Part shown: piece by piece, positions 1 to 64,000 of the stretch
Layout of the letters: each line of letters begins with the position of its first letter
Position numbering within the stretch: position 1 is the stretch's first letter
NCBI GenBank assembly: GCA_963969365.1
Contig: OZ017757.1
Span: 1,984,001 to 2,048,000, forward strand
DNA from: Asterochloris sp. CNOR1
Lineage: Eukaryota > Chlorophyta > Trebouxiophyceae > Trebouxiales > Trebouxiaceae
Reading direction: 5' to 3'
Length of the DNA stretch: 64,000 bases
Translations under genes and position numbers: made by a program
The notes under the pieces: generated by a model
What the model saw: the letters and a program-made list of their open reading frames with translations, nothing else
Database searches by the model: none
What the model was told of the DNA's origin: nothing

Positions 1-3000
1 CGGATGGGCATTGTACGCTCCAAGCGGGCTCCAAGCGCCATGCACCCCTACGGCTACATGAAGGACAAATTTGTGTGGTCCCTCATATCAGCTGTGGGCA
101 TCTTCTGCTTGGGAGCTGGCGTGACAGTCATGCATGGCCTTCAAAGCATGTTCCTGGAGAAGCAGATCGAGCATGTCGCAGCCACAGCCGCAGGTGAGGG
201 AAATGGCAGTCACGGTACCCTCCTGAGCACTCTCTGACTGGCGGCAGGTTGTGCGTTGCTGGCAAGCCAACAGACCCGCCTGCGCATCAGGAGGCAGCTC
301 CTGGCGACACAGAACAGCTTAACCGCTGCGTCATGCAGTCACCCAGCTGCTGTGCTTGGTATCTGTGCAGGTCTGAGGCATCCCAGTGTGCTTGAATGAT
401 GCTGCCGCAATGCCATTCCAATGCTGTTTGGCAACTGCTGACCAAAAAGTGCCTGGTGTAGTCCTAGGGCTCAATATGTGCTGGAGGGCAATGCGCTGCT
501 GGTCCAAAGTGTTGCTCTGCTTTGTGCAGTCCTGGGCTCTCCTCTGCCCATTCCCACATCAATTGTGGAAGTTGCTGCCCTCATGTCTCCACAAAGCAGC
601 CCCACGATTCTCATGTGTGCTGGACAGCCGCTTGCTGCTGCTTAAAGTACTGCCCTGCTGTGAGCAGTCCTGTTGCTTTCCTCTGAACTGCCTCACATGA
701 TGTGAGGGGGTCATTGACCAGATATTCTCTGATGCAGTCCTGGGGCTCTCATTTGTGCTGGAGGGCTACTCGTTGCTGGTGGCTGTGCGCACAGTGGCCG
801 CAGGGGCAGCCTCCCATGGGCTAACCTTCATGGAGTTTGTGCGGCGCGGCATGGACCCCACCAGCATTGCTGTCATGATGGAGGACGGCGCAGCAGTGGC
901 AGGCCTCGTCCTAGCCGGTGAGTGATGCTTCACATGTTGTGGGCAGTCCAGGCTGTCCCAAGCTGCTCAGACGGGCTGGCCCAGCACCAGTGTATCTGGT
1001 AAAGCCTGGTGTGTCAGTGCTGGGCCATATCCTGGTTGGCAAGGTATGTTCTTGAAGTTGACAGGCTGCCAATACATGCTGTTCAAAGCTGCCAATGCAG
1101 GTTGTTTGAGCAGCAGCAGACCTTGTGCTTCTCTGGCTGCAATGTTGTGTTGTTACCATCTGACTCATCATGAGACTAAACCCTGTCATAAGTTGAGCTT
1201 TGGCAGCTAGCGCGTGGGCCCCTCTGTGCCAGGCAAGGTCAGCAGTGGCGAGCCCAGTGCATGCCAATAGTACCTTTGCTTGCCTGTGTACCAGTGAGGG
1301 GTTTTCAGCATTGCGGTGACGCAGGCTGGCTTAGCAGCGGCAAACCCAATGCTAGCTGGTAGGTAACGCTGCTCAGTTGTGCGGCATCAGCAGGTCCAGA
1401 GCATGGTTCTGGATGCCCTTTGTGCTTGGCGCTGCAGCAATGATGGGTCTGGTGCTTGCTGGTGGGTGCACTTTGAGGATTTGGAGTTGGAGGGCTGTCA
1501 GCTGCATGCGCTGGCTGCCGCAGCAGCAGTAATATGGTTGCTGGCTTACAGCTGACATCTGGCTGTGAAAGTCTTGCTGCCTGCCACAGTGATTCATGCC
1601 GGCTGGCCAAGAGAAGGGTTTACAGCCTCACTTCGGCACAGCTGTCAGCAGCAGCCAGCTTCCTAGTCAGCACAAGTCATGGTCTGGGCTTCCAGCACAT
1701 GCATATGCAGCGTATCGCCCAGGGACACTTCCTTGGCAGCCTTCTGCACCAGCAGCCAGCCACATAACAGGAGACAAAGCGCACAAAGCCTGTGGCTGCC
1801 CTGCAGGCATTGCCACCTTCCTGACGTGGCAGACGGGCAGCGGTGTGTGGGATGCCCTTGGCTCCATAACCATCGGCATCCTGCTGGGGGTCACAGCGGT
1901 CTTCCTCATACAGAAGAACAGGCAGCTCCTCATTGGTGAGCCGGCAATGTCCTGCACCGTGAGGTGCAGGACTGTCGCGTTGGACTCAAATCATCTGCTC
2001 AAGCGCCTTGATTGCTGGCATACACCTGCTGGCCAGGCTGCACCTGTCACTTCTTGGGCTGATCAGTGCTGTCGCCCTCCACCAGATTGCTCTGATGTCC
2101 CATGCAGCACGTTGGGATGCAGGTCGATCGATGCAGGACGTAGATATGTCTAAAGTGTTGAAACATCTGCGACAGGACCCAGTTGTCAAGGTCAGCCTGC
2201 TTGTTCCTTTGTTTGTGTTATGTGCATGGCTCTTGATCCGCATGGGCTGAGCTATCCTGTGGCTGCTGTGGGCGCCAGGACAAGTTTCTGTGTGTCACAC
2301 TTGAGGGTTTCACGTGAAGGCTTGGTAGCCTTGAGGCTGCTGTGGGTGTGGCCCAGCAGCAGCTGTGACTCCTGCAAAGGACCGTTCAAAGAGGCGGGCA
2401 TTGGTGCTGTCGCCGCCTGCAGGCAGCCCCTCCTCATTCACGGTCGGGATGTGTACTGTGCAGGCAGTCTACGATGCCAAGAGTGAGGAGATTGGGCCAG
2501 GCGTGTATCGCTTCAAGGCTGAGATAGGTGAGAGGTGGATCCCTGTGGGTCGGCCTGTCACCCTGGCCTGCCTGTGCCTGCCCTGCCTGTGCAGTGCTCG
2601 TACTCCCATTGGCACTGTCTGGCCAGAACACTGACACTCGTGAGGCCAGATGTTTGCGGCCACTCGTCAGAGCTGCTCCCTCACATCCTGTACCCCTGGA
2701 GGAGGCACTGGCCAAGAGATCCATTGCTTCCGTTGCAGACTTCTGTGGGGAGAAGGTGGTTGAGCGCCACATGTCGCGTCTGGGCCGGGAGCCTCTGTAT
2801 GAGTGCATCACAGCTGCCTCCAAGACCAGAGACAGTAAAGCCATGGAGCTGGTGCTCATGGAGTATGGTGAGCACTGATTGCCTCACCACCAGCCTGACA
2901 GTCAGGACACTCCTGCCATGTCTCCTGCACAATGTTCCTACCTGTGGTATGCCTTGGTTGTGCAGATGTGCTGCACAACCTGTCCACAGCTGGTGCCAGA

Positions 3001-3662
3001 TAGTCTGAGGTCTGGCGCTCGTAGTACAGATCACCAGTCACGATCTAACCTTGTTGAGGCTGATAAATCTGATCTGCTCGTGGAGGGGGTTCTCATCAAT
3101 GTGTTGAAGGACTGGTGCAGTGCTGCGCTCTGTGTGAAGCTTCAGCCGGGGGTTAGTCAGGCTCCGCTTTCATTGGGCTCTGCCAGGCGGGCTGTGTGCT
3201 GGAAGTCCTGGACTGCCCACCTCTTTGCTGAGCTCACAGAAATTGCTCAGGGGCATTGCAGTCACAATCTTTGCCATTCACTGGAGTAGCAGCTGCAATG
3301 TGAAGTTGCGAATAGTAGGTCTATCCACACGCGCACCTTGACCCAACTATCCTATGCAGGCAAAGACATGGTGAATGCCCTTGGGGCAGAGGTCGACAGG
3401 TTGGAACAAGAAGTGCGTCTGCTGGTGCCTGGGCTGAGGCACATAGACTTGGAGACTGACCGGGGCAGAAGGGATGGCACTGCTTCCCAGGTGGGGGTCA
3501 GCAGCCTGCGCTTGCTTGAGGGCTCGCGACTCCATTTGGCTGATTCACGTACCACACTCATCGCTGCAGGATGACCTGGACGCACTAAGATTTGACAGTG
3601 TGCCCACCTACACCTCAGGACTGCCATCAAATGGCTTGCAAGCTTCTGCTGGAGTTGCGTGA
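1..3662 (+). CDS. SLC30A9: Zinc transporter 9-like cation efflux protein, 5' partial
   Basis: Member of the cation diffusion facilitator family closest to SLC30A9/ZnT9, a multi-pass membrane protein. Inferred exons: <1-193, 738-917, 1807-1935, 2123-2190, 2464-2527, 2739-2867, 3360-3490 and 3570-3662. All phases agree and the stop is at 3660-3662. Exon 1 carries a transmembrane segment (VWSLISAVGIFCLGAGV). Exon 2 reads LEGYSLLVAV and later MEDGAAVAGLVLAG. Exon 3 has VWDALGSITIGILLG, with the Asp/Gly pattern of the family's TM5. Exons 5-7 give the cytosolic tail typical of ZnT9 (VYRFKAEIDFCGEKVV, then NALGAEVDRLEQEV and LRHIDLE). The N-terminus lies outside the window. Introns 1 and 2 contain decayed copies of exon edges. 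Family assignment is firm; metal specificity is inferred from family only. Confidence 0.86.
455..700 (+). repeat. Acceptor-side echoes of zinc transporter exon 2
   Basis: Intron 1 holds decayed copies of the start of exon 2 (738 onward). The copy near 455-505 matches the first ~45 bases of the exon. Weaker pieces occur near 523-545, 608-650 and 661-690. They keep the order GCAGTCCTGGGCTCT then TGTGCTGGA-GG then GCTGCTGGT, but the reading frame is lost. Confidence 0.6.
1236..1475 (+). repeat. Donor-side echoes of zinc transporter exon 2
   Basis: Intron 2 holds two clear and one weak copy of the 3' end of exon 2 plus its donor (real junction at 917/918). The copy at 1428-1470 still translates as GAAAMMGLVLAG before GGTGGGTGC. 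The copy at 1329-1370 ends in a donor-like GGTAGGTAAC. A weaker one sits at 1236-1275. Confidence 0.6.
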
Positions 3663-4006
3663 AGCAAGTTCACCTCTCTCTGCAGCATGCTTAACTACAT
3701 GACTGTATGTTTGCCACAGCCTCTTTGCTTGCAAGGGTCAGGAAAGCCAAAGCTGCTCACATCAATTGGTATTTGCATAGTCAATAATAATAATTATGAT
3801 CACTGGCCACATGATCAGTCATTGAATTAGGGTCGGGATCCAGGTCCTGCTGGTGGTGTTGTAACAGCCACGGAACCAGGCCGATCCCAGCCGGCTCAGT
3901 CCTGGCATCGGTGGACAGAGGTTGTGCGATAGCGATCTAAGCTTTCTCGTACAGGTGAGCGAGTGCGCAACCCAAAGATCCTCCTCCCAAGGGGAGAGAA
4001 GTCGCC
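3663..4006. other. Intergenic, zinc transporter to armadillo-like gene
   Basis: 344 bp between two same-strand genes, expected to hold the 3' UTR of the first and the promoter of the second. It contains a short AAT repeat near 3782-3797. No clear polyadenylation or TATA signal was recognised. Confidence 0.4.
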
Positions 4007-7000
4007 ATGGGGCGAACAACGCCGCCTCAGACATGGAACGGCAGCATCCTCTCTCAATCTGGCATGCAGGCCTGTGCTGGTGCAACAGATCCAGTGCGTC
4101 TTGTGGGCATGCTGGCTGCGCAGCATGGACCTGACGATCATTCAGGCTCCCAGAGCCCATGGAAGGGCTGCGGTGGCTCAAAGGCTGCAAGCCCTGACAA
4201 GGTCAGCTGGGCATCAGACATGTGACGCATGCTTGCCTCATTCTTCATCATGCTGAACGATGGTATGATTGCGTCTTGCTTCAAGTTCAAACCACGGTGT
4301 CACGCCCATGAGGTCACATCATAGTGTCACTCCCAGGAGGCAACGCTGCTGCAGGTCACACCGGCAGGAGCCAAACGGGCACCAAAAGCCTTCCTGCATG
4401 AGAGCGAGGGCAGCGACAATGAGTACAGCGATGCCACCGCAGGCAGCACGGGCCTGCCCTCGGCCCCCAGCTCCCCAGTCGCTGGGGCTGGCCTACATAG
4501 GGCAACAGCTGGGCATCCCACACCCACGACAGCAGCAGGTGATGGCCCAACTACACCCATGAACGGTGCCGCATCAGACGCCCTGCCCTCCACGGCCAGC
4601 TCTCCCTCCACAGGAGCTGGCCAGCGCCATGTCCCGGCTAATCAGGTAGACCCCACACTGATGATGGATCAGCAAGGCTGTGAGCTTCCTTGGGAACAGC
4701 ATCTGCCCGGTCCAGCTGTGGCAGGGGCTGGCCCTCACACGCCAACAAAGGACCAGCGGGGCTCTGAGGGCTCTGCTGCAGCCGCTGCACCGCAGAGGCA
4801 CTGTGCCATGGCTGTCTCAGCAGCGGTAGATGAGCCAGCGGTCAGCCGCTGCAAGCCCACTGTTGCCGCGCCAGTCCCAGAGCCCAGCTCTGATGAGGTC
4901 AAGGGGGAAGCCGTGCTCACCCAGGCCGCGCTGATGGAGGACTTGCCAGCCAGTGCGCTGCTGCCCAGAAGCGGCAGTGCTGAGCTGCCACCGCTGGACG
5001 CAGAGGACTTGGGGGTAGCACTGAAGCAGAGGTCCAACAGCGTGCAGGTGCGCTTTGCATGGCGACTCCCTCTATGGCAGGGTTGGCATGAAAAGGTGCC
5101 CTCTGCAGGTTCAGCTTTTGATCTGCGGCTGGTCCCTAGATCACCATCTGCAGAGGGTTCCAAAGCGATGTGAAACGAAAGGCCCGTACCTGCATCAGGC
5201 TGAGCAGCTGTTGTCACTGGCCGCGCGCAGCTCTTGATCCTGTCAGGGTGACAGAGCGTGCCTCACAGTGCGACCTGCATCTGCTTGACAGGCACGCCTG
5301 CCTATCAGATGGGGCAAAGCAGGTGCACTCCACAGCATGACCAGCTGCTGCTGGACAGCCGCTTGCACTGCTTCAGTGCACTCTGGACAAGGCTGAGGCG
5401 GGTTCGCTCCCATGGGTCAATGGCCATGCCGCCCTGGCTGACGGTGCCCTTGTGCTGCAGTGCATTCTGGACACGGGGGAGGAGGTGCAGGCAGGCAGCC
5501 CTGCCTCCCATGGGGCAGTGGACATGCTGCTGGGCCTCCTGCGCGAGGGCAGCAGCATGAGCTCCATTGCTGCAGCGGAGTCCTCCCTGAAGAACATGCT
5601 GGGTGAGCGCCTGGTACACTGCTGCACAGAATCTTCCGTGAGGAATCTGCTGGGTGAGCGCCTCCAGGGTAAGTCTCGGAGCGGTCTGGCATGCCATGCT
5701 CTTAGCTTGGCGTGCAGGTTCAGCCAGCATCCCCAGTTGACCCCCGTGATCTGCCTGGCAATGTCAGGCACCTGTGCATACTCAGCCGGCACAATTGTTG
5801 TGAGCGTGTTTGGTTATTGGGCAGGAGGTGGCTGCAAAGCATGCCAACCTGTGCCCTCTGTGCTTGGGGCCTACTCTCACTGCAGGCTGGCAGGCAGGCA
5901 ATTGGACCTCGACCACTGGGGGGTTCTCAAACTCCTTCTGCCTCTGCAGGCATTGATCAGGCCCAGGAGCGGAAGCAGACAATTGCAGATATCCGGCAGG
6001 AGCTGCAGGGGGATTTGGTGGCCTCAGCCCAGGCAGTAGATTGGAGTGCTGAGGCTGGCTGGGCACTGGTGAATACCCTGCTGCTGGGTAGGTTCCTATG
6101 CTCTGCCAAGGGGTTGTCAGTACGTCATGAGTGCCGAGGCACTGGCTGACACCCTTCTGCTGAGTGAGTGCTGCTCATGCAGGAAGGCTGCCAAGGGGCC
6201 AGGCCTGCCTTTGTGGCCTTTGGTACCGACTCCTGCTGCGCTTGGGTGGACATGCCGCCGCTGGGGTACTGCCTCTGTTCCAAGCGGCTTCAACTGCCTG
6301 TGTCTCCAAGACCTATGGGGCTGGCTGGGCTTTGCTGGACACCAACCAACCTGGGGTGCTCCTGCATAGGCAAAGGCGTTGCAAAGCGGTTGTGCCTGCC
6401 TGTCTGATGCGGAGGCCAGGGAGGTTTCAGTCTAGCAGCCCCATTGACCAAGGAGTTTGCCCAGCTGCACGGCAATAGGAGATCCTGAGATTGAGAGCCT
6501 GCTGGTGTCAGCAGCAGGCCCTGACTGCTGCAATGGCTCCTGCCAGCCCATCTCATCCTTGCAGCCGGTCTCAAGTACAGACCTGCCTGCCTGCAGAGCC
6601 TGAGTCTGAGCGGCTGGCAGCCACCACTGACAGGTGCATACGCAACCTTATCATGCACCCAGACTGCCACACTGCCATCTCGGCAGGGTGAGTGCTGCCC
6701 ACCTGATCAGGCTCTCAACAGTCACACGCATGCTGGGAGCCTGCACAAAACTTGACTTTGCACACTGAGCACTGCTGCTTCCGAAGGCATTCTGCCTCCA
6801 TGTGAAAAGCCATGTGCTTTGTTGACTTCCTGGCTGATGCCCCACTTTGCAGCCTGCAGGCTGTGACTGACAGGGTCCCACTCTGCTGCAGTGACCTGTC
6901 TGTGTTTGCCCTGAATGTGGATCTCTGCCTGTGCGCTGAGAGCCAGAAGGCAGCAGTGCAGCTTATCATCTGTGCTCTGGCCTTGATGCCGCCACACAGC

Positions 7001-10000
7001 AGCCTCACCTGTCTGACGACTGTGGCTGATCCTCACAGGGTAAGACTGCAACGGGGCATTGCTGTGGGACCCCCTTCTGCCTTCTCTTGGCAGCCGTCTG
7101 AACACCACTGCACTGCTTGTGTGTCAGCTCTGTGGATGCCTGAGGCAGCACCACCGCTGAGGCGTCGCTTTGCTTGTTGGTGATGCCTTCAGTCCTTGCG
7201 AGAACCAATACCTTGAATGCCTCTGTGCAGGCGCTGGTCAAGATTGCTGAGGGGCATAACGATGCTGCCGGCCAGCTAGCTCTGTGGGGAGTCATGGTGC
7301 TGGCGTGCCTCTCCGAGTGGCACACAGAAGCTCTGGCGCGTGCAGGTGAGCATTGGAAGTCCCTGTCTGCTGCCTGGCCGCCTGCAGGCCTCCCTGGCCG
7401 CAAGATCTGTGTGGCGCCTGTCTGATGCTGACAAGCTGCAGGCGGGACCCTCCTGCCTTCTGTAAGGCTGGCTGCGATGCATGGGCGACATCAAGCTCAG
7501 GCTGGTATATTCAGTCCCTGCGTGCCCGGCAGCTCTGGGTGCCTTGAAGGGATGGGTGAGCTTGCGCTGGGGTCCTTGCGGTGCATGCATTGATTGCATG
7601 GACCCAGCCACTTGCTAGAGCAAATATGGAGCAATGGACGCACAGGACCGGTGCACATGCCAGGAAGACAAGGGAGAAGACGTGTACAGCAAGGGGTGCA
7701 CTGCCATTCCATCCAGTTGAGGGGAGGTGCACGTGCAGGGTCTGACTCCTGCAGTCTCAGCGGGCCACCCAGTCACACGGTGTCAGAAGTTGTGGTGCAG
7801 GTGCCACTGCGTTGGTGGTCCCCCTGACCTACCAGGCCGACAGAGCGGGGAGGGATGGCGCCCTGCAGGCACTGGCGCGCCTGGCCGCCAAGGAGCCTGC
7901 GGCCGCCAGCCAGACCATGTTGCACAGCGCAGGTGAGCTGTGCAGGCCCACCTCCATGCAGCAGAGCCACTTTCCAGGTACAGACCGGTTGGTGGGCCTG
8001 CAGGCCATGTTGCATGGTGATTGGGCACTGGTCGCCTTGTTCCACCTTTGGACTCTCTCAGCAGTATGCACCAGCAGTTCTTGGAGAAGAGCCTGACGTG
8101 CTGAAGTGTTGTGCTGCAGGCATCCCCCCGCTGATGGGCCTGATCGCGGACCTCTCAGAATTGCACTTGAGGGGTGGGCAGGAAGGCGTCCTGCGTGCTG
8201 CTCTAGAGCTGCTGGCAGCTCTCCTAGGCGAGGCAGGTCCACAGGCAAGTCTGGGCGGGGCTTCCACCCTCTGGTCTGTGCTGGCCACTTCAGCCGCAGT
8301 GCGCAGCTTGGCGGCCCGGACCTCCTGTGCGGCTGGGCTGAGCTGTCAGGCAGGCCACCCTGCATTCAGGTGCTTACGGACACCATTGGGCGTCATCATG
8401 GTCATTGTTCTGGGCTGCTGGCAACAATGATGAGCAGGGCAGGCCTGCGGATCAGGCCTATGCAGAATCCCTGCGCAATACAGCTGCCAGCCGCCTGGGG
8501 CCTGCTGCATCGGGTGCATGCAGAGGCTCACCTCCTCCAACTTGTGGATTGCCTCAGCCATGTCTTTGCTTCTGGCGCTGGTGCCTCTCTGCAAGGGTGC
8601 AGCCCCGTTGCCATACAGCTGCCAGCCGCCTGGGGCCTGCTGCATCGGGTGCATGCAGAGGCTCACCTCCTCCAACTTGTGGATTGCCTCAGCCATGTCT
8701 TTGCTTCTGGCGCTGGTGCCTCTCTGCAAGGGTGCAGCCCCGTTGCCTGCGAGCTGGGCAAAGCTCGTCTGTTTCTGAAATGGGGACAGAGCAGCCTTGG
8801 AGCCCCACAAGTCTCACTCTCACGCCCCAGCTGCACCTTGCTGCACGTGACTCACAGAGCTCATCGGGCCTGTTGAAGCATCATCTCCACAAACGATGTC
8901 TTGTGGGTGCGACTTGCCTGCCAGCACCAGAGATCCGTGCACCTGACTCAGCATGTGGTTCACACTGTGGCATGCAAACATACACATATATATACACACA
9001 CACATAGACAATCTCTGCCTGATGTGCAGGCAGAGGTGGCCTCTGAGGTGATGCTGTGCCGGGGAGAGGCAGCCTTAGTCATCTGTGGTGACTTGTGCGA
9101 CCCCACGCTCAACCTGCCCGCCATCACCGCCCTGCGTCAGATTGCCCGCCTGGCCCCCGACTACCGTGCCGCCATTGCAGCGGTAGCTGAGGGCACCACC
9201 GTCAGCGGGCGAGTGCTGCAGGGTGAGGCACAGATGAATGCAGCATGCCGCCGTTGAATGGAGTGAGCTGCCTGCAGCGCATGTATCGAGCAGCACGGAG
9301 AATGAACAGGGGGATGTTGAAGGGTGAGAGACCCGGTTGCAACCAACACATCAATGTTGGCTTGTTGCCTGGGGCCCAGCAGACATTGCTGCAGCAGCTG
9401 AGAACATGAATGTCAGCGGGCGTGTGCTGCCGGGTGAGGGGCACTTGAGGACAGCGTGCCGGCAGCTGCCTGTAGCCCAATGGCTGTACAGTCGTTGAGG
9501 GCACCATATGTGGTGAGGCATTAGCGTGGCGGGCAAGTCAGCGTCTGAACAAGGCAAGGGTCCATGCAGCCATGCTGCAGCACCTGAGAGCGCCTCTGTC
9601 AGTGGGCGCATGCTGTAGGGTGACTGGGAGGGTTGGCGTAGAACGCTGCTGATTTCATTGAGATCCGCTGAGTTTCCTTGCAATAGTGGCTGTGAGTACC
9701 GCAACCCGAGTCTAGGGCAGGCTGGCTGGCTGGCTAAGCACTTCTCGACCCCGGTTCCGACACCTGTGCTTAGGCTGCCTGGAAGTTGCTGACCCCTTTG
9801 CTGTGCTGGCGCTCTGGCGAAGGCCGTTTTTTAGTTAAGGCTCTTCTTACTTCTGCCATCTGCTGCACTGCTGCAGACAGGACCACGTCGTTCAGCACTG
9901 AAGCCGGATCTGGAGAGGCAATCAAGGAGGTGCGCTGTGCGCATCAGTACCATAATTCTGATGGTTTGCACCAAACAGTCAGCTGCCTGTCTGCGCCCAT

Positions 10001-13000: not shown

Positions 13001-13752
13001 GTGGTCTTTGTAGTGGCGCCCCCTGAGCCAGCCCCTGCAGCTGCCTGGCTGACATGCATCACGTTCTGCCGGCACGCCAGGGGCGCCGCTCCGGGGAAGC
13101 GCTGTGACTCAGCATGCAGATTGTCCTAACAGGTCGGGAGCCCTAGCTTCTTGCCTTCTGGCACGCCAGGGGCGCTGCGACCAGGTGTGCAGTGTGCCCA
13201 GCAGGACTTTGCAAGCAGTCTTTGAAGCACCGTCTCGTACCTGCAGGCCTGCAGGGGATGCTGCCTTGCGTAACACCAGCAGACCAGCACAGCAGGAGCT
13301 TGCACCTGACGGGGCTTAGATGGCAAGCTTGTGCACAAAGTTCGTGTGCCTGCAGGCATATCAGGGGCGCTGCCCTGGGTGAGCCCTGCGACTCAGCATG
13401 CAGCGTACCTAGCAGGACCTCGCGGGTGGCCGAGCTGAAGCAGGCCCTCTCCCAGCAGGGGCAGCAGGCCAAGCTGCCGGCACTGGCGCCCCGCCCCAGC
13501 CCCGGGCGCGGGCGCGTGACTCAGCTGTTGGAGTGCCTGTCTGGGGCTTCCACACAGACTGGCCCCATCAGAGGGGCACGCTCGGGGCGCCGCTTCGGCA
13601 GAACCCTGCGACGAAAGCTGGGCAGGTGGGTTGGGGTGTCTGCACGGCTGGCTGCTGTCGGCTGTGGGCAGCAAGCGGGCGTACCTGGCCGGAAGAGTGC
13701 TACTGTTGGCAGCCATCAAGCTGGGCAGATGGATGCAGGCTGCCTGTGGTGA
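4007..13752 (+). CDS. Large armadillo-like helical-repeat protein, function unknown
   Basis: Not recognised as a named family. The phase-consistent model is 4007-4201, 4355-5047, 5269-5322, 5461-5602, 5950-6087, 6597-6687, 6892-7039, 7231-7345, 7801-7932, 8120-8236, 8524-8810, 9030-9222, 9877-9929, 10321-10380, 10845-11023, 11597-11772, 12285-12756 and 13416-13752 (about 1193 aa). The N-terminal ~300 residues are Ser/Pro/Ala-rich and look disordered. Exons between 5461 and 9222 encode short amphipathic helices of armadillo/HEAT type (e.g. VDMLLGLLREG, ALQALARLAAKEP, AITALRQIARLAPDYRAA). The C-terminal third is low complexity with basic patches (RRFGRTLRRKLGR). The intron after 11772 uses a GC donor (CAG|GCAAGC). 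Exons at 5269 and 8524 and the 3' end are the weakest parts; the end could instead be an exon near 13786-13819. Confidence 0.6.
5376..5670 (+). repeat. Edge duplications flanking an armadillo-like exon
   Basis: The start of the exon at 5461 (TGCATTCTGGACACGGGGGAGG) has a diverged copy just upstream near 5376-5400 (TGCACTCTGGACAAGGCTGAGG). Its end, reading SLKNMLGERL, is repeated at 5632-5668 as SVRNLLGERL. All candidate donors, after 5602, 5658 and 5668, keep the same phase, so alternative splicing is possible. Confidence 0.6.
6100..6360 (+). repeat. Donor-side echoes after exon 5950-6087
   Basis: The exon end AEAGWALVNTLLLG plus its donor is repeated at 6127-6172 as AEALADTLLLSE followed by GTGAGTGC. 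A weaker fragment (GGGGCTGGCTGGGCTTTGCTGG) lies near 6316-6340. Confidence 0.6.
8478..8747 (+). repeat. Exact 135-bp in-frame tandem duplication
   Basis: Two identical units, 8478-8612 and 8613-8747, with no mismatch seen. The period equals 45 codons. In the preferred frame each unit contains AWGLLHRVHAEAHLLQLVDC, an amphipathic helix suited to an armadillo-like repeat. Both units can be read through without a stop between 8524 and 8810, so the duplication may lie inside one exon. Confidence 0.9.
8976..9006. repeat. AC/AT microsatellite
   Basis: Mixed dinucleotide run ACATACACATATATATACAC followed by further CA units, in an intron about 25 bases upstream of the exon at 9030. Confidence 0.85.
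9185..9640 (+). repeat. Serial donor-side echoes of exon 9030-9222
   Basis: The exon end and donor (GTCAGCGGGCGAGTGCTGCAGGGTGAGG) recur in the following intron as GTCAGCGGGCGTGTGCTGCC near 9412-9440 and GTCAGTGGGCGCATGCTGTA near 9599-9625. Each is followed by a GGGTGA donor-like motif. Spacing is about 190-220 bp. Confidence 0.7.
10676..10800 (+). repeat. Acceptor-side echoes of exon 10845-11023
   Basis: CTGCAGGCTG then GCGCAAGGAGCATGC at 10676-10705, and GGAGCACGCTGACCGCTTCT at 10769-10790, copy the acceptor and first ~45 bases of the exon at 10845. The second copy has a TAG where the real exon continues. Confidence 0.6.
13060..13420 (+). repeat. Repeated acceptor region before the last armadillo-like exon
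   Basis: A unit of GGGCGCTGC, then GACTCAGCATGCAG, then CCTAGCAGGAC-type sequence is present at about 13080-13135, 13168-13210 and 13368-13420. Only the last copy leads into open coding sequence, at 13416. Confidence 0.6.
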
Positions 13753-48500: not shown

Positions 48501-50280
48501 CCCTGAGGCAAGGACACAGGTCACAACCCTTCAGCCTGGGCTTGTCCTCTGGTCCCGCATACATCCTGCCATGCAGGCGGGCGCCTCTGGCATGGTGATC
48601 AACACAATGGGCTTCATCGACGGCGCGGGGTACGACCTCCTGCTGCACTCCATTGAGGCCCTCAAGGCCGATGTGGTCCTCGTGCTGGGCCAGGACCGCC
48701 TGTTCAGCCAGCTGCAGAGCGCGCTGCGGGTGAGTCACAGCGAGCATGGCTCATGACAGAATGCTGTGCACAGTGGGACACAAAGGGGGTCCAGCTGCCA
48801 GGGGCTGCATCGGGACTGTCACCTGCACAGCACTCTGCAGTTCTTCTAGGGTGTCAATGTCTGTACAAGGGCAGTCTTCCCTTTGGAAACTAGACACAAG
48901 CATGAGCTGCAACAACTGCACGGTGTCGTGCACCAGAGTCCCCACTTTTCTGATGTACTGCACGGTCAGCACCTGTCAGCGCTAAGATTCTCAAAGTCTC
49001 GAGATGTTCAGCCACCTGCAGCAAGCCCTGAGCCTGCTGCAGTGCTTGAGGGCTGCCCTTGCCAGCTGCAGACTGTTGGCTTGTGAACAGCTGCAGTGGA
49101 TGCACCCAACCCTTGTGCAGAGCTGGGGGCTTGCCCTGCGCAGCTGTCGGCCTGGGCTGACACAAGCTCAGGGGTTGGGTGACCTGCATGGGTGCACACT
49201 GATGACTACTATTATGCAGAACAGTTTGCATGCAATAGCTGAGGTCTGACAGACCCCTGCCTCCCCCTGCTGCAGTCCCAACAACACATCTCAGTCGTCA
49301 AACTGCCCAAGTCAGGAGGTGTGGTCACCCGGCCCAGCAGCTATCGGCGGCAGGCCCGTGTCAGCCGCGCCTATGAGTACTTTTATGGGCCCCGTCATGA
49401 CCTGAACCCCATCATGGAAACGGTAAGGAGGCCCATGTCAGCTGCGCCTATTGAGTACCTTCATGGGCCCCGTCACGACCTGAATCCTACCATGGAAAGG
49501 GGCATTTGGCTAGCTGGCACCATCAGCTGTTATGCAGAGGACTTGTGAGGCAGGCAGCCAGAAGCACTGCGCACCCAGGCCGAGTCCAAGCCGCCATCCG
49601 TAGGCTCTTGGCAATGCTGGAAGCCCCAGGGGGCTGTCGTGTGCTGCAATGCTGTTGGGGCCTCCCCTGCAGACTTGGGATGGCTGCCTCGCATGCTGCC
49701 GCCTGCCATTGTGCTGCGTTCACTCATGCTGGCCTGTTGTGCAGGTCCCTTTTGACCAGTTGCAAATCTACCGCATTGGAGGGGGCATCAGAGCACCCAG
49801 CTCTGGCGTTCTGCCTGTAGGTGAGCACTGTAAAGTTAGCTGCCAGGCCTTTTGTCTGTTTCATGGCAGGGCACGCAATGCAGCATTCCGCTCGTCTGTT
49901 GCATGTTCATTGCCAGGGAAGTTGCCAACATGCAAAGCAGCGGGGTCCTTTCATGTTGCACAGCATGCTTTCAGTGCCATCTTGAAGCGTTCCTTGCTCT
50001 CTGTGTCTCACCTACAGGCGCAGAGTCCCAGGCAGACCCACTGAAAGTCTCCCCAGTGACCAACATCAACGACATCCTCAATTGCATGCTGGCTGTCTCT
50101 CACGCTGACAGCCCTGAACACCTGTTGTCTGTGAACGTGGCTGGGTTTTTGTATGCAGTAAGCATTGATGCCCGCAAGGATCCTCCAACAGTCACTTATC
50201 TTGTTCCCTGCCCTGGACCTTTACCCGGCAAGTACTTGCTGCTGGGGGCTGGCAAGATGCTCTTCCCTGAACAAGGTTGA
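45522..50280 (+). CDS. CLP1: CLP1 polynucleotide 5'-kinase / pre-mRNA cleavage factor subunit
   Basis: CLP1 binds ATP and acts in mRNA 3'-end cleavage factor II and, in animals, tRNA splicing. Exons: 45522-45581, 45764-45814, 46101-46181, 46427-46500, 46981-47092, 47585-47687, 48037-48239, 48577-48729, 49276-49422, 49745-49820 and 50018-50280, giving 440 aa with all phases consistent (human about 425). N-terminal domain: KKFQLHALTELRLEV, NAEVFGTELPLG, FTWGGCTVQ, then DTPMSFYLNVHDTLENRR. Kinase domain: Walker A GPTDVGKSSLCRLLLN, then DLDIGQGSITAPG, VPLVYFFGSPSPTDN, GAGYDLLLHSIEALKADVVL and GQDRLF. C-terminal domain: RAYEYFYGPRHDLNP and HLLSVNVAGFLYAV. It looks catalytically competent. The first exon (20 codons) rests on weaker evidence. 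Several introns hold exon echoes. Confidence 0.93.
46894..46950 (+). repeat. Echo of CLP1 exon 5 with intact acceptor and frame
   Basis: GCAG then a copy of the exon start at 46981: the echo translates as FVCDGESMSLYLNVQ beside the real YDSDDTPMSFYLNVH. The phase (one extra base after the acceptor) is the same as in the true exon, but no donor is evident. The period is about 87 bp. Confidence 0.8.
47255..47595 (+). repeat. Serial acceptor-side echoes before the CLP1 Walker A exon
   Basis: The real acceptor GCCTGCCTGCAGGTGGTGGG (47573-47592) has copies near 47270-47290 (GCCTGCCTGCAGGTGGTCCT), 47441-47485 (CTGCCTGCCCCCAGGTGGCT then TTGTCTGGGCATAGCAGTCA) and 47492-47535 (GCCTGCCTCCAGGTGGCAAC then GTCTGGGCACAGTAGTCAAG). 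The last two are nearly identical over about 45 bp. Confidence 0.75.
49355..49505 (+). repeat. 77-bp duplication of the end of CLP1 exon 9
   Basis: Bases 49355-49422 plus the donor are repeated at about 49432-49499 at roughly 85% identity (CTATTGAGTACCTTCATGGG beside CTATGAGTACTTTTATGGGC). One inserted base shifts the frame, and the copy lacks the donor (GGAAAGGGGC in place of GGAAACGGTAAG). Confidence 0.85.
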
Positions 50281-50801: not shown

Positions 50802-53800
50802 TCACGCCATGATGGCAGAGGGGTTGGGGATGCCATTGGCCTGTGCCGGCTGCTTGCCCTTGAAGTCTGCTGCCTGCAGGCTCCCAGTCTGCTGGACATG
50901 GTGCCGCAAGAACTCCTCGATCTTGTCCCTTTGCTGGGCGTCGTCCTTCTGACAGGCCACTGCGTACTGCTCATAGTCAAAGGCTTCCGTGTCGGGCAGC
51001 GCGCCGCCCATGCACTGCTCCATCTACATGCAGCAATTGAACTGTTGCTGCCAGATTCAATGGCCATGTGACACATTCTAGGTACCTTGTGGCTGCATTT
51101 CACATAGAAGGGCAGGGGCCACATGGAGAGGCCGCCATAGGCATGGTCTGCATTGTCGCCAGTCAGGCAAGTGTGAAGATAAGGCAGCAGGCTTTCACAG
51201 TGCACAATGTGTGCAACAAAATGGGTAGACAGTCTGCCAGCGAGGGGGCACTTGAAACTCATACAGCTTATGGCAATCAGCGCTTTGCAGCGATGCAATA
51301 AAACAGTGCGGAAGCCAGAAGGCAATTAGCACTTTGCCCCATGCAAATGGACGTGTGGCCTGTGGACCAAGGCCATCTTCCAATCAAGAGAGGTTCACCC
51401 CCATGTTTTACCTGGTCCATATGAAATTGGGCCTCCATTTCAGCCTTGCCAGCTGCGTCCACATTGATGAATCGAACCTTCTCCTTTGTCACAGGGTCCA
51501 GCAGGGGCTTGCACATCTGCAGGCAATGAGCCACACGGGTGAGGCGCGGCACAGAAGTCTTTTGGCCGCCAGATTAAGCCCATCCGTATAGGGTCCTGCC
51601 GTTGGCTAAAAAACCTTTGCAGCTCCCTACACTGCAGGCTGCCATTTATATCTGAAGGCTTGCAAGCGGTCAGACTGCTTCACACCAGAGTCGCAGCTCC
51701 CTATGCTGCAGGCCGCCATCCTTATCTAAAGGCCTGCAAGCGGTCAGACTGCTTCACACCATGGTCGCAGCTAGGTGAGGGTGCAGCATGCCCATCAGGG
51801 CCACAGAGGTGCATAGCATGCTCCATGGTCAAAGAGGCATTGACGTATTGCCAGTTGTCTGTGTGCACAAAGTCCAATGCACCAGGAGACCAGCCGGCCT
51901 GGTTACACATCTGCGGCGCCAACTCGAAGCCGGCTGATACAGCAGCAGGCAGGCTCTGCAGGCCACAGGCCACCGGGGGTTGGGCAGCCTCCAACACCCT
52001 GGGGTCAGCAGCGTGACAGCAGCAGGTCATCGCAGCCAGCCCGTGTGTGTCTCCAGACAGCAGCAGGCAGCAGCAGCCCTTAACGGCTGCTGGAGCAGCC
52101 GAAAGCTGGCGCTGTCCAGAAGCGGCATTGGTGATTGCACAGGATGCCCAAGCAGTTGCTTGCAGACCAGAAGCTGCCGCACTTCTGCTACCAAAGACAC
52201 AGCTGGCCAGAAGGCAGACAAGCTCACCCTCCAGGTGAATGAGAACAGCTTTGGCGGGCTGTAGCAGACCGCCAACCCTAGCCGCTCTGGGTAGTGACTC
52301 TGGAGAATCTTGGTGGTGGCTGCACACAGCATGGTGGATTGCACTGGGGCGGCAGTGAGCAAGGTGCAAGCGCTGTTGTGGCAGAAACCTTGAGGTACAG
52401 GGGCACAAGCAGGTGTCACAGCGCTGATGGGCCTCAAAGGCAAAGGGCGTTGCTGAGGCTGTGCAAGCACCATACAGCAGACTGGGCTGCTCACATATGG
52501 CATGGCTCATAGGGGGAGCATTCCGGTATGAGAACTCCTGAAGGTCTAGAAGCCATGTCATCTGGCCAGCACCTGCAGGCAGAGTGCTGCTTGAAAGAGG
52601 GCTAGCCGCAGCTGACTGCACTGGGACGGTCAGGCACTTGCAGCCAGGTGCAGTTGCTAGACACGAGCAGGGTACCATCAGGGGCTTCATCCCAGCAGCT
52701 CATTGTCCTCAATAAACATGGTAAGGAAGACACTGGGTCTCAACCAGGGCTCAACACGACACTGCACCAGTGCAACCCAGCAGCCTCAGCTGCTCAGAGC
52801 CTCTCAAACCAGCAGCAGCTGTTTACAGCTGCACGGGGTGCCAAGCATAGCAGCAGCTGCCCATCATCCTGCTGCTGTCCTCAGGTGTAGCCACAACTGG
52901 ACAGGTCAGCCCGACAGACAGCAGCCATTTGCTGTCATCCAGGGTGCATTCAATCATTTGTTGCAGCTCACCTGTTGCATCGGCGTCCCTGCATGCTGCC
53001 TCAAGGTGGTAGACTAGAAACCTGATCTGACGATCCGAGACTGGAGTGTTCTCTTTCCTGCAGGCAGAGGCCACCCAGGTCAGGCCTCAGAAATCATGTG
53101 GCAAGCTGCTCAGGCTGCCGGCAGCACATCTCTTGACACACCTGCCAAGCAGGGATGAGGCAGCGCTGTGTGGACCCTCGCATGCAGAGCTGTGCTGTCA
53201 CAGAAGCACCCCTGCGGCCCCGCAGCCTGGCAAGACAGCCAGGCACAAGGCAGCAGCCCTCGCATCTTGTGACGCATCGTGAGCGCAGCACCACGCCAGC
53301 AGCCCTCACAGCACCTCCTTCCCGACCGTGGTAGAAGTGCACGCTGCAGCAGATGTCCTGGCAAACCCTCACCGCGGACGCAACACCAGAACCGGCCGTC
53401 CAGCCCTGTCACGACACCTCATCTTGAAAGTCTTCCCCGTCTCTGCCTCCATCGCCACTTCAGCCCACGTGATCTGATCAGGCCTGTAAGCCAGACGCCT
53501 GCAGCAGACCCCGGAACTGCCTCCATTGTGGCGGGTCACAGGTGCAGGCAGCAGGTGGTAGAACCACAGCCCCCCCACGCACTGGCACACAGGCTGTCAT
53601 GCACTGCAATTGCAGCTGGGCAGCTGTGGAAGCATGACCTGTGCCTTTCATAGCTGTGCCTTGCAGCTCATGGCCCAGGTACGGAAGCCACGCTGTGCTC
53701 TGCCAGGGTGCCCTCCACACTGCCCCAGAGGCTGCCATGCGTCTCAGGTGCAACTAGCCGGCAATACCGCATGAGCTGTGCCGTGTAGCTGCTGCAGAGA

Positions 53801-54664: not shown

Positions 54665-54748
54665 GCCTGCCAGCCCGCTTATCGAGGGGACCTCCTCAGG
54701 AGACCGATCAATGAAGTTAGTCAAAGGGGAATAGTGAGGTCTTTACTT

Positions 54749-57633
54749 TCAGGTCTGCTTTTCAGGAAGGGGGAGGGGCCTACAGAATGCACGGCTAGAC
54801 CACAGGGACAGCAGCATGACAAGATGGCACACCAGGAGGACCCAGGAGGACTCAGCACTTGGGGGATAGACGTTCCACACAGACTCAATGCAGAAGAAGA
54901 TGCCTATCCGCGCTGGCAGCCACAGGGTGCCATGCCATAGCAAGAAGGGCAGCATGTGGAAGTACCAGCTGTAGAATTGATAGTGCAGCGTCCGGGAGCA
55001 GACAATCCCAATGAAGTTGCCTGAAAAGATGACAAGCAGCGCATCTTGTGCAAAGGCGGGGCGCTCCAGGCTGCGCAGATGTGCCTGTGCCAGGACTGTC
55101 TCTGCAGAGGTCTGGCGCATGAGTCCGGCCACTGCTGTGGGCGGCTGCAACTGATTCTGCTGGGTAGGAGTGTTTGAGGCCGTTCCTGGAGCTGCCATCT
55201 TGCGGGGCTGCCTGCCGGCAGGCCGCGTGGGCCGCGTGAGCCGCTGCATACACACTTGCATGGTGTGCGGCAAGCCGCCTGTGTTGGCGCACCACCGCCA
55301 GTGCGCAAAGGCCAGCAGCAGCCCAAGGTGTGCCCCCAGCAGGAGCACGGCCAAGCGCTTGGACTCGAACTGCTCCGGCTGCAGGAACTGGAAGTTGACC
55401 GACCACTGGTGCATGAACACGCGGGAGAGCTCGAAGGCGCGGGACAGGTAGGAGGCCGGATGGGATAGAAGGAAAGGTGCTCCCAGCACCAGCTGCAGCA
55501 GCACGCCTGCCACTGACCCGCGCGCAATGTCCTTGGGGGTCGCATACTGCAGGGCAGGCAGGCACTGATTGCAGCCAACATGTGGGAGCTCAGACATGAG
55601 CCGGAAAGGGCAGGCACGCCGCTGTTGGCAGGCAGGGCTGATTGAAGGCGGGCTGCAGCAAGGCCACAGCCGGGACTGGCTGGTGGCTAGCAGGCGCTTG
55701 TCAGCAGCAGGAGTGTTTTCACCTCAGCTCACAGTGTCCAAACAGCATCAAGGAGGCAGCGGACATGCAACACTGGGCCATGAAGAAGCCCTGGTCCATG
55801 GCTGCAGCCGCTCTGCGGCTGGTGTGCTCATAGCAGGAGCACTGCTTTCCCCAAGAGGTGCAATGCAAGCAGCAGATAAATCTTGTTTTCTTGGGTCAAC
55901 GTGAGCAGCAGGACCAGCACCAAGGGCAAGGCTGCATGCAAATTCAAGCTACTGCGAGCAGTCCTCCCAACCATGCTGTCCCAGAGTAAGCAGCAGCACA
56001 ACCACTGCGGGCGCCGGTGGCTGCACATTCATCCTGAATGACAAAGCATTGTTGGGCCACCCTGCCACCACAACAGTGAACACGCGCATGAGCTGCAGCC
56101 AGTAGCTCATGCCGGAAATGATGGAGTCCATGCAGCCACTTTTGGCAGCCCGCAACAGCATCAAGGGTGCCAGCAGCAGCACATCCATGTTGACCGACAT
56201 GCCTGCGCTGTGGGCCACTTTTGACAGCCCACCATCAGCGGCAGAAGGTGAACCTGCAAATACAACCTGCAGCCAGCAGTGCATGCACCTACGAAGTGGG
56301 CCATGCACCCACCTTGAGCAGCAGGACCAGCACCGATGGCGCCAGCAGCAGCACATTCATCTTGACTGATACAGCTGCGCTGTAGGCCACAAGGGCTGCA
56401 GCCCACCACCGCGCAACCAGCAGGGCAGTGGCTGCATAGGCCAGCAGCATGGCTATGCAGTCGTTGAAGAGGCGCAAAACGAACAGGCTGTGCATGCGCT
56501 TGCTGAGGCACAGCAGGGCCAGCGTCCATGGGGGCACTGCCTCACTGCAGATGTACAGGTGGAACACCAGCACCTGCAAGGAGGAGTCGCCCATCAGGGT
56601 GTCACTCTTCAACAAGTCAAACATGAAAAACAAATCTTGCTCGTGATGCCACACGAACTCCTCAACAAGCATGAGATTCCAGGGGCCTGGCCTTGCTTGC
56701 TTGCGGCTGACGGCCTCATAGCGCCCAGAAGGTCTTGTCAGCACAGCAGACCGCGACAGGCAGCAAGGACACTGCCAGCGTGGGCATGTCACAAGGCACT
56801 GAAAGCGGTCCGTCAGTCTGCTTGTCGTGGTGGCCATGCTGCAAAGGACTGCTGCTGTCGCTTTGTGCAATTCAGGGGCCACGGCCAGCAGGATGCTGCT
56901 CCTGCACAACTATGGGTGGTCAGACCGTGCTGTACTCCTCAGCTGTGTTTCAGACACTTGCCTGGGTGAGAAGGTACAGCACCGCGAAGAGGCACTGTCC
57001 CAGCCAGATATTGCCGCCATTGGTTAGCCAGCGCAGTGCACTGTACGCATATACAAAGCCTGCAGGCAAGGACCAGGATGGTGAACAATGTTGGCAAGGT
57101 GGTGGGCTGTGCCTGCACGGTGGCTCAGTGTAGAACCACCAGCACTGATGAGGAGATGCCCTTGGCGGCCATGCAGCAGCAGGAGCTGACCTGCCGGGTA
57201 GACCAGGGGTCCAGTCTGTCCTTTGAGCTTGGCATAGTCAAGCTGGCCCTGCACCCATGTTTGTAGGAGTGTTGTTGATTTGTTAGCACTCAAAAATGTA
57301 CTAGGCACCTGATAACATGCCAGAGCTGTATGAGGGCACTAAGCTATGCAGACTCACATCCAAGAAACCTTCCACCTCCTGCATGTAGGCCACCCAGTCG
57401 ATTTCTGTGTCTGCAGAAGGAAAGGATTGGGTTTCTCTGGCATCTTGAGCATTGAGTTCAATGCAGCACATTGTGGCTTAAGCAGACTTACAGGGAACCC
57501 TCCAGATGATGGCTGCACACAGCACTGCCTCTGCAACAAGGAGGAGTGAGGCAAATCCCCAGGCTGCCCGGCGATCTCGAGGATCGCACAGTCTCTTGAT
57601 CAGTGCCTTTGTCTTGCCCACAGCATCATCCAT
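54749..57633 (-). CDS. ALG3: ALG3 dolichyl-P-Man alpha-1,3-mannosyltransferase
   Basis: ER membrane enzyme adding the sixth mannose to the lipid-linked oligosaccharide (Man5 to Man6-GlcNAc2-PP-dolichol) in N-glycan assembly. Exons in coding order: 57633-57492, 57410-57358, 57248-57191, 57059-56962, 56573-56313 and 55546-54749, giving 469 aa with consistent phases. Blocks: YTEIDWVAYMQEVEGFLD, QTGPLVYPAGFVYAYSALRW, VPPWTLALLCLSKRMHSLFV, LRLFNDCIAMLLAYAATALL, AVSVKMNVLLLAP, FMHQWSVNFQFL, GNFIGIVCSRTLHYQFYSWY and ESVWNVYP. The family's G-D-T-G-P-L is G-Q-T-G-P-L here. The intron after 56962 uses a GC donor (CAG|GCAAGT). Intron 5 (about 770 bp) contains three echoes of the preceding exon end. It starts 165 bp from the divergent PsbP-domain gene. 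Confidence 0.92.
55900..56230 (-). repeat. Three donor-side echoes in ALG3 intron 5
   Basis: The exon end (minus strand AVSVKMNVLLLAPSVLVLLL) is repeated as MSVNMDVLLLAPLMLL at about 56230-56140, LSFRMNVQPPAPAVVVLLLT at about 56040-55980 and ALPLVLVLLLTL at about 55930-55900. The copies differ in length but keep their order and orientation. Confidence 0.8.
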
Positions 57634-60398: not shown

Positions 60399-60564
60399 CT
60401 GCACCTCACCAGGTCTGGACAAAGAGTGAATCAAATCATGAAAATGCATGTTCTCGTAAGTCAGTCTTGCCTAAGATGGATAAGGCATTCAGTGTACCAT
60501 GTAATGCCACAGGTTGACGTGACTACACAACACAAATGGAGGGGTGTTGAGCTGTGAAGCTTCC

Positions 60565-62633: not shown

Positions 62634-64000
62634 ATGGCCTTGCAGGAATACAAAGCCCCAAGCACAGCCAGTAGCGATGCTGGAGCAATTGTGGCAGTGC
62701 GGGGTGCTGAGGAGCTCACACAGGAGGAGTATGACAAGCGCGTGAAGGACGTAAGATCTCTGCTGCACTGTTGCATCTGCAGAGCTGCATGCTCCCTGAT
62801 GATGTGGAGTCTGCTGATAAGAAGCCTGATGGAGCCGCTGATGGAGAGCGCTCCTCTGCTATGCACAGGGGTCAGCGGCACTGCAAGCAAAGCAGGGACA
62901 GGCTGCTGTCCTTGGTGCGCCCTAGCTGGCCACAGCTCGCCAAGAACCATGCACATTAACCAGTAACCACGCACAAGCATGGGTGCACATAAGTGCTTCT
63001 GCACACTCAAGGCAGGCATCATGCACAAGCCCCAGCCAGCCATCGCCCAAAGCTCCGCAACACACAGGCTCACACCAGCCACTTTTGCGCTGCAGGCTGA
63101 AATTCTGGAGGAGAAGCTGAAATTTATCACAGAGAAGATTCCCACACGCATCATGAACACAGCAGGCTCTAATGCAGGAGCAGGCAGTGGCGAGTTCCAC
63201 ATGTACAGGATGGTGAGGTGCTGCAGCAAGCTTATGCTGCCTTCTGCTCTTGTCAGGTGAATAAAGTTGTGGAAGGCCCAGGTCACGTCTCATGTGCAGC
63301 ATGATGAGACCACCAGCAGGCTCATGCCGCGTCTGGTTGGCAGCAGCTTAGGCTCAAGTTATAGCCAGTCTGTGCCATGGCCACATGCAAAGAATGATGA
63401 GAGCAGCAACACGCTGGTGCAGCATCCATGCTGCGTTTGAACAGCCGCTGCGTCTGCATTGCAGATCAAGCTGCTGCATCTTTGGCTCCTGCCATGCTGC
63501 ACGCAAGCATTGCACACATGCTGGTTGTTGGACACCGTGGCAGCCGCTGCATTTTGCGTTATCAATCAAAACTTGCCCATGCAGGCACGGCGGCGAGAGA
63601 TCATGAGGCAGCAGCGCATAGCAGAAGACGCAGCTGCAGAGCAGGAAATGCAGGAATTTGAGGTGTGCTGCAGTGCAAGATCAGTGCCGTTCAGCAGCAT
63701 CATAGGTTTCCTGGACTATGCTTCAACAGGCGCTGGCCTTTGTCAATGTTGTGCATTAATGGCCTGCAGGAACAGAAAACCAGGCTAATGCAGCAAGATG
63801 AGGAGAGGACAGCAAAGAGGAGGGCAAAGCGGCAAAAACAGAAGGTGCTCTTCTGCCCCGCTGCCGTCAGTTGAAACTGCGTTACAAGAAAGTTTTCTGT
63901 CGAGCACAGACACTGACATACTTGTCTGCAGGCCAAACAGCAGCAGTCCAGAAAAAGTGCCAAAACTGAGGGCCAAACCAAACCCCAAGCTGAATCTGGA
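62634..64000 (+). CDS. PRKRIP1: PRKRIP1 / DUF1168 nuclear protein, 3' partial
   Basis: DUF1168 family (human PRKRIP1, a double-stranded-RNA-binding protein found in spliceosomes). Exons: 62634-62750, 63096-63212, 63585-63662, 63770-63844 and 63932->64000, all phase 0. Diagnostic core: GSNAGAGSGEFHMYRM, then ARRREIMRQQRIAEDAAAEQ, DEERTAKRRAKRQKQK and the basic tail AKQQQSRKSAK. The family's GAGSGEFH-x-YR motif is exact. The N-terminal 39 residues (exon 1) are not conserved and the ATG at 62634 is the first in frame. Highly charged, predicted helical and probably nuclear. The stop codon lies beyond the window. Confidence 0.85.

Follow-up and report, generated by a model that had tools for sequence, protein, structure and literature searches.

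Diverged Copies of Exon Edges in the Introns of the Green Alga Asterochloris sp. CNOR1 as Possible Survivors of Small Tandem Duplications

Introduction

Why do the introns of a green alga carry copies of the edges of their neighbouring exons? The question is raised by a 64-kb stretch of the genome of Asterochloris sp. CNOR1 (contig OZ017757.1, positions 1,984,001–2,048,000 of the forward strand; hereinafter, the window), in whose introns the first-pass annotation had described diverged copies of the adjacent exon end, lying in the same orientation next to the real junction, and had suspected a genome-wide habit. Such copies, referred to below as echoes, are real and concern about one exon edge in eleven, not nearly every gene. 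With a probability of about two in three, they are the survivors of undirected small tandem duplications that were hidden by splicing.

Results

Frequency of Echoes and Controls

The analysis covered the window and 23 other 10-kb stretches of the same genome (294 kb in total), of which 18 were taken one per contig at a fixed place and five were random draws. A scan for ungapped repeats (match +1, mismatch −1, score S) returned 184 same-strand segments with S ≥ 20 at local offsets of 8–1000, compared with two at far offsets of 3000–3992, which supports local copying, and no such segment in the parallel complement control. Self-BLAST of copies no more than 1 kb apart (cut-off of 34 bits) yielded 122 direct pairs and one inverted pair. 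The echoes lie on the strand of the exon, next to the junction, and far exceed chance. At least one direct pair was present in 20 of the 24 stretches and none in four; the sole inverted pair above 34 bits was located at L009:7812–8036 (44 bp, 88.6%, 54.5 bits). BLAST probably discards matches close to the diagonal; few short periods were obtained with it (none below 65 bp at 36 bits), and the independent scan was therefore used instead.

In the edge test, the last or first 60 exonic bases, taken without intron sequence, were compared with their own intron (introns of at least 80 bp, with at least 30 exonic bases). At S ≥ 14, an echo was found for 42/425 acceptor and 36/418 donor edges, as against 14/3364 and 18/3308, respectively, when random introns were used (0.4–0.5%), 6/329 and 2/324 for the next intron (0.6–1.8%), and two and three for reversed introns as well as for introns shuffled in blocks of three. 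At S ≥ 16, the counts were 33/425 and 27/418, whereas reversed and block-shuffled introns gave none on either side, random introns gave 2/3364 and 2/3308, and the next intron gave 1/329 and 1/324. The comparison with shuffled and randomly paired introns, which had been proposed as a check, thus revealed clearly unequal rates.

The share of affected genes had been overstated. Echoes had been ascribed to at least 12 of 15 genes, whereas at S ≥ 20 they were detected in 9 of the 17 gene models of the window and in 33 of the 84 intron-bearing models overall; the pattern is thus real, although less general than had been supposed. When the 12 cases named in the first-pass annotation were mapped to junctions and scored on exonic sequence alone, seven exceeded all 300 controls, two were borderline (PsbP and the donor side of the zinc transporter gene, the scores of this pair being reached by one and two of 300 controls), and three did not stand out (TraB, signal peptide peptidase (SPP), and the LAS1 donor; 19, 10, and 12 of 300 controls). 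The latter three show local repeats once intron sequence or gaps are allowed (41.9 bits, S 25, and S 35, respectively).

The frequency of echoes (S ≥ 18) was 17.6% in introns longer than 400 bp, 8.2% in those of 250–400 bp, 1.7% in those of 150–250 bp, and 3.2% in those of 80–150 bp, which agrees with the proposal that local duplications spanning junctions add intron length. Segments that are still detectable made up 5.8% of intron bases. The 87 exon-edge events were found on 72 junctions; therefore, some junctions hold more than one copy. The window contained 36 events with a period of at least 40, namely, 26 exon–intron (14 donor-side and 12 acceptor-side), five intron–intron, and five exon–exon. 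As to dispersed copies of the kind made by introner-like elements or transposons, a 181-base piece (49340–49520), the only one sought in the whole genome, matched only itself, and scans of the window against Rfam and for tRNA genes returned nothing.

Genome and Gene Models

The genome of this photosynthetic organism (31 genome matches to chlorophyll a/b-binding proteins; a PsbP gene in the window) comprises 56.4 Mb in 21 contigs, with C1–C18 of 2.0–4.5 Mb each, C19 of 43 kb, and C20 of 110 kb. Gene models were predicted ab initio by a hidden Markov gene finder self-trained on the sequence, and the junctions are accordingly predicted ones, not derived from RNA. The finder converged on 545 introns within the training pieces (median of 235 bp), and the final prediction supplied the 562 introns used for testing. 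The predicted donor consensus was AG/GTGAG. The predicted acceptor was strict, TGCAG/G, with T, G, and C before the AG in 92%, 94%, and 97% of the 545 introns, respectively.

All ten window proteins checked against Pfam matched above the curated cut-off, the families being cation efflux, mitochondrial carrier, signal peptide peptidase, PEP mutase, CLP1, Las1, PsbP, Skp1, and ALG3 (twice). The two ALG3 models correspond to separate portions of the same family, and the finder has probably divided a single gene. Individual predicted junctions may be wrong, and the count of 17 gene models in the window is inexact owing to this split.

Layout, Periods, and Age of the Copies

Among the 142 segments with S ≥ 22, 72 had periods of 60–149, 14 had shorter ones, and 56 had longer ones, up to 940, with a peak at 80–130 bp. 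The range of about 50 to 215 bp given earlier was thus too narrow. At some places, a long period equals the sum of shorter ones (186 + 211 = 397 at 9168–9623 in the window). The eleven youngest pairs were picked for an identity of at least 0.84 and an alignment covering 0.6 of the period or more; in six of them, the aligned length equalled or exceeded the period, i.e., they are head-to-tail tandems, with the reservation that this length filter itself favours tandems and that older pairs are too decayed to be judged. An identity of at least 0.85 was found for 16 of the 88 edge pairs and 8 of the 42 intron pairs, and the scarcity of young pairs suggests a slowdown of the process or error-prone copying. 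Events were not concentrated towards either end of the gene, the mean rank of 83 events along their genes being 0.517 compared with 0.500 for 507 introns.

Distribution of Duplications among Exons and Introns

After events with a period below 40 had been dropped (13/181), 168 events were classified and compared with random placement. Acceptor-side (46 events observed, 29.7 expected) and donor-side (42 and 29.3) pairs were in excess, exon–exon pairs were close to expectation (24 and 22.6), and fewer events than expected were intron–intron (42 and 54.9), intergenic (13 and 16.2), or exon–intergenic (1 and 8.3). For periods of 60–450 (136 events), 82 exon–intron events were observed versus 48 expected, 36 intron–intron versus 42.2, and 16 exon–exon versus 19.4. 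Over the range of thresholds, the ratio of observed to expected at these periods was 1.43–1.53 for exon–intron and 1.09–1.14 for intron–intron pairs.

Two loci were treated separately. In L012:5022–7000, repeats lie inside predicted exons, their periods including 99, 219, 387, 504, and 723, and five of its six exon–exon pairs have periods that are multiples of three; this is apparently a repeat-protein gene. L013:1981–3730, predicted to be intergenic, is a dense cluster of diverged direct repeats and holds 10 of the 13 intergenic pairs. Both were removed from the event-category counts for periods of 60–450, the simulations, and the medians of echo extent, and only L013 was removed from the threshold-wise placement ratios; the edge tests and the splice-site, codon, 168-event, gene, and intron-coverage counts retain all loci.

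Survival of Undirected Duplications as the Preferred Explanation

The explanation to which we give a probability of about 0.66 would operate as follows. Small head-to-tail tandem duplications would arise in the genes of the alga, with some places being hit repeatedly. Where the duplicated block lies within an intron or across one junction, splicing from the first donor or to the second acceptor would remove the extra copy and leave the protein unchanged; such duplications would survive, while most of those within exons should not. The exon copy would remain under selection and the intron copy would decay, so that exon/echo pairs would stay visible longest, the intronic parts would fade first, and the surviving echoes would lengthen their introns. 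Donor copies follow the real donor and acceptor copies precede the real acceptor, as had been described; this layout can be read as what splicing lets survive, because use of the first donor or second acceptor preserves the protein. The near equality of donor-side and acceptor-side events (42 and 46) is consistent with such survivorship. As for the origin of the duplications, published work on other organisms suggests the repair, by end joining, of paired nicks or of breaks that carry long overhangs, to which the genome matches to Ku (2) and family-A DNA polymerase (9) lend slight support.

The excess of exon edges may follow from decay alone, since an exon/echo pair diverges on one side and an intron pair on both. 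Eight simulation settings were run in which tandem duplications arose without direction and those disrupting the coding sequence were lost (units of 50–150 bp; ages in substitutions per site). With ages of 0.2–0.6 or 0.2–0.45, the simulated edge-to-intron ratio was 2.26–2.30, and the observed one was 82/36 = 2.3. The extent of donor echoes fitted this null model in all eight settings (Mann–Whitney p = 0.30–0.94). Strong junction targeting had seemed to be implied by a first simulation; the real pairs were then seen to be older, and when the ages were varied, a ratio of 2.3 was reached. Duplication targeted to junctions is possible, but it is not needed.

A number of results weigh against this explanation. 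The first simulation (units of 105 ± 25, uniform ages, no splice-site constraint) gave a ratio of 0.44–0.56; of the later ones, those with ages starting from 0 gave 0.67–0.72, those with ages from 0.1 or 0.15 gave 0.90–1.16, and other unit sizes gave 1.00 (ages 0–0.8), 1.34 (0.15–0.55), 5.3 (0.25–0.5), and 6.2 (0.3–0.4). The agreement at 2.3 was found post hoc in two of the eight settings, with simulated units of 50–150 bp, whereas the 82:36 count spans periods of 60–450. In the settings giving 2.3, the share of pairs with an identity of at least 0.85 was 0.12–0.13 for edge and intron pairs alike, while in those giving 1.15–1.16 it was 0.17–0.20 and 0.09–0.11, respectively; the settings that best reproduce the proportion of young pairs seen at edges are thus those with a ratio of about 1.15, which leave an approximately twofold edge excess. 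Acceptor echoes were shorter on the exon side than simulated (median of 36 versus 50–53; p = 0.0002–0.13 over the eight settings). For periods of 60–450, only two intergenic events were found versus 16.3 expected, and 0 of 400 placements were as low; start-side and stop-side events were absent (3.6 and 3.5 expected from placement, respectively). The simulated ratios predict about 11 intergenic and four stop-side events, where two and zero were seen. No harm would be expected from a duplication that spans a stop codon, and the intergenic shortage is not accounted for by survivorship. In the model, therefore, undirected duplication can explain part or all of the edge excess, and a roughly twofold residual may be left.

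The Intergenic Shortage and a Possible Gene-Body Process

Three causes could each produce the intergenic shortage: sequence between genes may be replaced more quickly, short intergenic spaces may be under constraint, or the duplication process may be tied to gene bodies. According to the last of these, duplication would be confined to, or strongly favour, the bodies of genes with introns, with transcription or splicing as conceivable triggers (nicking, R-loops), and this we regard as unlikely. It draws on the low count of intergenic pairs given above, which held over thresholds (both copies intergenic at 0.18–0.22 of expectation for periods of 60–450), and on the absence of exon–intergenic pairs at the same periods (0 versus 4.7–14.2 expected), set beside the exon–intron excess. 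The intergenic sample is, however, small (72 predicted segments, 48 kb), and the rapid replacement or constraint of such DNA mentioned above may play a part; moreover, the repeat cluster in L013 indicates that duplication can occur outside predicted genes, one exon–intergenic pair exists at a period of 610, and the events show no 5′–3′ trend along genes.

It is conceivable, though doubtful, that a gene-body-linked process acts, or once acted, in this lineage, duplicating blocks of about 100 bp where they stand; splicing would conceal the outcome, and introns would lengthen as copies of exon edges and of intron sequence accumulate. If so, the 82 + 36 events would imply, at the age setting of 0.2–0.45, about 650 duplications and about 60 kb of the approximately 150 kb of intron; the implied total ranged from about 210 to 970 events across the eight simulation settings. 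Should the intergenic shortage hold, it would point to a gene-body-linked duplication process.

Splice Sites and Coding Constraint in Echoes

The mismatch between exon and echo at the three codon positions was 0.26/0.23/0.30 for donor pairs and 0.24/0.21/0.28 for acceptor pairs. These values are nearly flat, so the echoes, taken together, are not maintained as coding sequence, and a role as coding or alternative exons was rejected for the pooled pairs on the same grounds. The third-position mismatch is only slightly above that of the first and second positions; the echoes thus seem to diverge far faster than the silent sites of the exons.

The proposition that selection preserves echoes because they serve as alternative exons or as splice sites in reserve or with a regulatory role, of which the first-pass annotation had suggested spare splice sites, depends strongly on how the echoes are detected. 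Detection assisted by intron sequence, which is biased, favours it: AG was kept in 30/42 and GT in 17/29 echoes, and the TGCAG positions matched at about 0.9. With exon-only detection (segments reaching to within 10 bp of the junction), acceptor AG was kept in 17/30 and TGCAG in 13/30, whereas donor GT was kept in 11/29 and the donor 5-mer in 2/29; the exonic reference values were 0.62 for 2-mers and 0.28–0.29 for 5-mers, and the simulation expects 0.49–0.71 for AG and 0.52–0.67 for GT. Thus, only TGCAG exceeds its reference, AG is approximately neutral, and both donor motifs fall below theirs. Echo acceptors look neutral or slightly favoured and echo donors somewhat purged, so that spare splice sites found no support, and selection for such sites or exons, given also the flat codon-position mismatch, is highly improbable.

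Birth of Introns and Compositional Noise

Under the Rogers model, an intron is born by tandem duplication of an exon piece bearing AGGT and is itself the duplicated unit. The model is known from other organisms (PMC3443670, as far as the available part of that paper indicates), and the tandem units found here are of intron-like length. Its signature, a repeat offset equal to the intron length across both junctions, was seen in none of the 562 introns at S ≥ 14 (highest score 10), and the two-sided class was empty versus 2.6 expected, old decayed gains being invisible in such a comparison; the model is hardly credible as the source of the echoes. Compositional noise from CTG- or CTGCAG-rich sequence, despite the strong TGCAG consensus of the acceptor and the five named cases that were weak or borderline against exon-only controls, was rejected for the whole set by the near-zero random, shuffled, reversed, next-intron, and far-offset controls and may hold at most for single weak cases.

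Individual Loci of the Window

The youngest tandem duplication seen consists of two near-identical head-to-tail copies at 8475–8756 (plus strand; period 135, S 137, identity 0.97; 100% in Tandem Repeats Finder (TRF)) over the predicted donor 8513/8514 of an ab initio gene model. Further along the plus strand, three copies (9168–9250, 9379–9461, and 9573–9623) occupy 9168–9623 with periods of 186, 211, and 397 (S 41, 27, and 27) and form two donor-side pairs and one exon–exon pair.

On the same strand, the cation-efflux (zinc transporter-like) gene (439–780; Pfam Cation_efflux) contains at 439–503 an echo of the edge 716–780 with the acceptor at 738 (period 277; S 33; alignment; exon-only S 20, 0/300 controls). 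Other acceptor-side echoes of the plus strand were found at 5369–5485 (echo 5369–5401 of edge 5453–5485, exon from 5461; period 84, S 21), at 13066–13403 (echo 13066–13119 of edge 13350–13403, exon from 13356; period 284, S 32; alignment), at 27136–27312 (exon from 27286; period 137, S 20), and at 28506–28670 (exon from 28636; period 124, S 23), the last with TGCAG kept in the echo. At 29378–29769 (plus strand), the edge with the donor at 29441 is followed by two downstream copies (periods 100 and 248; S 31 and 53; 0/300 controls), and at 29888–30419 (plus strand), a cluster of acceptor- and donor-side copies surrounds the exons 30107–30156 and 30381–30607 (periods 134, 140, 201, and 475; S 21–25).

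On the minus strand, copies lie in four Pfam-supported genes. The mitochondrial carrier gene (18212–18424; Pfam Mito_carr) has a donor-side echo at 18212–18305 of the edge 18331–18424 of exon 18386–18445 (period 119, S 34; 0/300 controls). In the LAS1 gene (Pfam Las1), the interior of exon 33764–33917 is echoed at and beyond the donor (33605–33891; periods 120 and 227; S 35 and 20), with the exon-edge-only test being negative (12/300 controls reach the score), and the edge 35019–35082 (acceptor 35069) is echoed at 35232–35295 with TGCAG kept (35019–35295; period 213; S 34; alignment; 0/300 controls). The PEP-mutase family gene (44257–44502; Pfam PEP_mutase) has an echo at 44257–44330 of the edge 44429–44502 (donor 44444), in which the junction sequence is kept (period 172; S 28; alignment; 0/300 controls). 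The ALG3 gene (Pfam ALG3) has donor-side echoes at 55980–56047 and 55897–55927 of the edge of exon 56313–56672 (55897–56390), along with a third copy at 56156–56218 scored as exon–exon (S values of the locus 32, 23, and 39; 0/300 controls); a head-to-tail tandem also lies within its predicted intron at 51619–51772 (minus strand; period 74, TRF 87%, S 60, aligned length equal to the period + 6).

In the SPP gene (39116–39251, plus strand; Pfam Peptidase_A22B), the echo 39116–39176 of the edge 39191–39251 (exon from 39227; period 75, S 25; weak in the exon-only test, 10/300) was scored as exon–exon because the finder placed a 12-base exon (39152–39163) inside the echo. Ab initio gene finders can thus turn echoes into false micro-exons.

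The CLP1 gene (plus strand; Pfam CLP1_P) holds an acceptor-side echo at 46884–46938 of the edge 46971–47025 (exon from 46981; 46884–47025; period 87, S 21; 0/300 controls) and, within a predicted intron, a head-to-tail tandem at 47432–47532 (period 50, S 35). At 49352–49501, the final approximately 71 bases of exon 49276–49422 are followed by gtaagg and then by a copy that is 87% alike, extends to about 49501, and ends without an intact donor (period 77–78 from TRF and sequence; S 50; 0/300 controls). The copy boundary lies almost at the used donor gtaagg, as if the intron had absorbed an exonic duplication.

Discussion

Comparison with Known Systems

Because they decay slowly, exon edges can mark duplications whose traces would be lost elsewhere, and the echoes provide a measurable footprint of the accumulation of intron DNA. 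No description of exon-edge echoes in introns as a genome-wide pattern was found among the matches listed, as judged by the title and the beginning of the abstract, and a systematic trace of decayed exon-edge copies in one algal genome may be new. The following comparisons extend as far as the available parts of the cited papers.

Intron gain by tandem duplication is known (Hellsten 2011, as cited; Drosophila cases, PMC2891723; potato RdRp, PMC4974935), and the echoes resemble it in that the copy spans both exonic and splice-site sequence. They differ from it in geometry, since an offset equal to the intron length is absent among the 562 introns. The potato paper also mentions an 83 bp tandem duplication within an intron by which the structure was not altered (PMC4974935). 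Duplications inside genes are likewise known, and the echoes are similar to partial intragenic duplications affecting exon–intron structure (as cited in PMC3443670 and PMC4974935); in Asterochloris, however, the copies lie within existing introns, and no new intron was detected.

Mouse and human cells produce small tandem duplications where breaks leave complementary 3′ overhangs, and fill-in by Pol alpha-primase/CST is a route to them (PMC8355091); in rice, natural insertions are often tandem, and an origin in break repair has been proposed (Vaughn and Bennetzen 2014, as cited in PMC7407515). Unlike these duplications, the echoes are mostly old and decayed and occur in introns and at exon edges, rarely in intergenic DNA, and a repair origin for them is only suggested. 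At the same time, they share with the break-repair duplications of rice and of PMC8355091 the same-strand, head-to-tail arrangement of units of tens to hundreds of bases that bring no element of their own.

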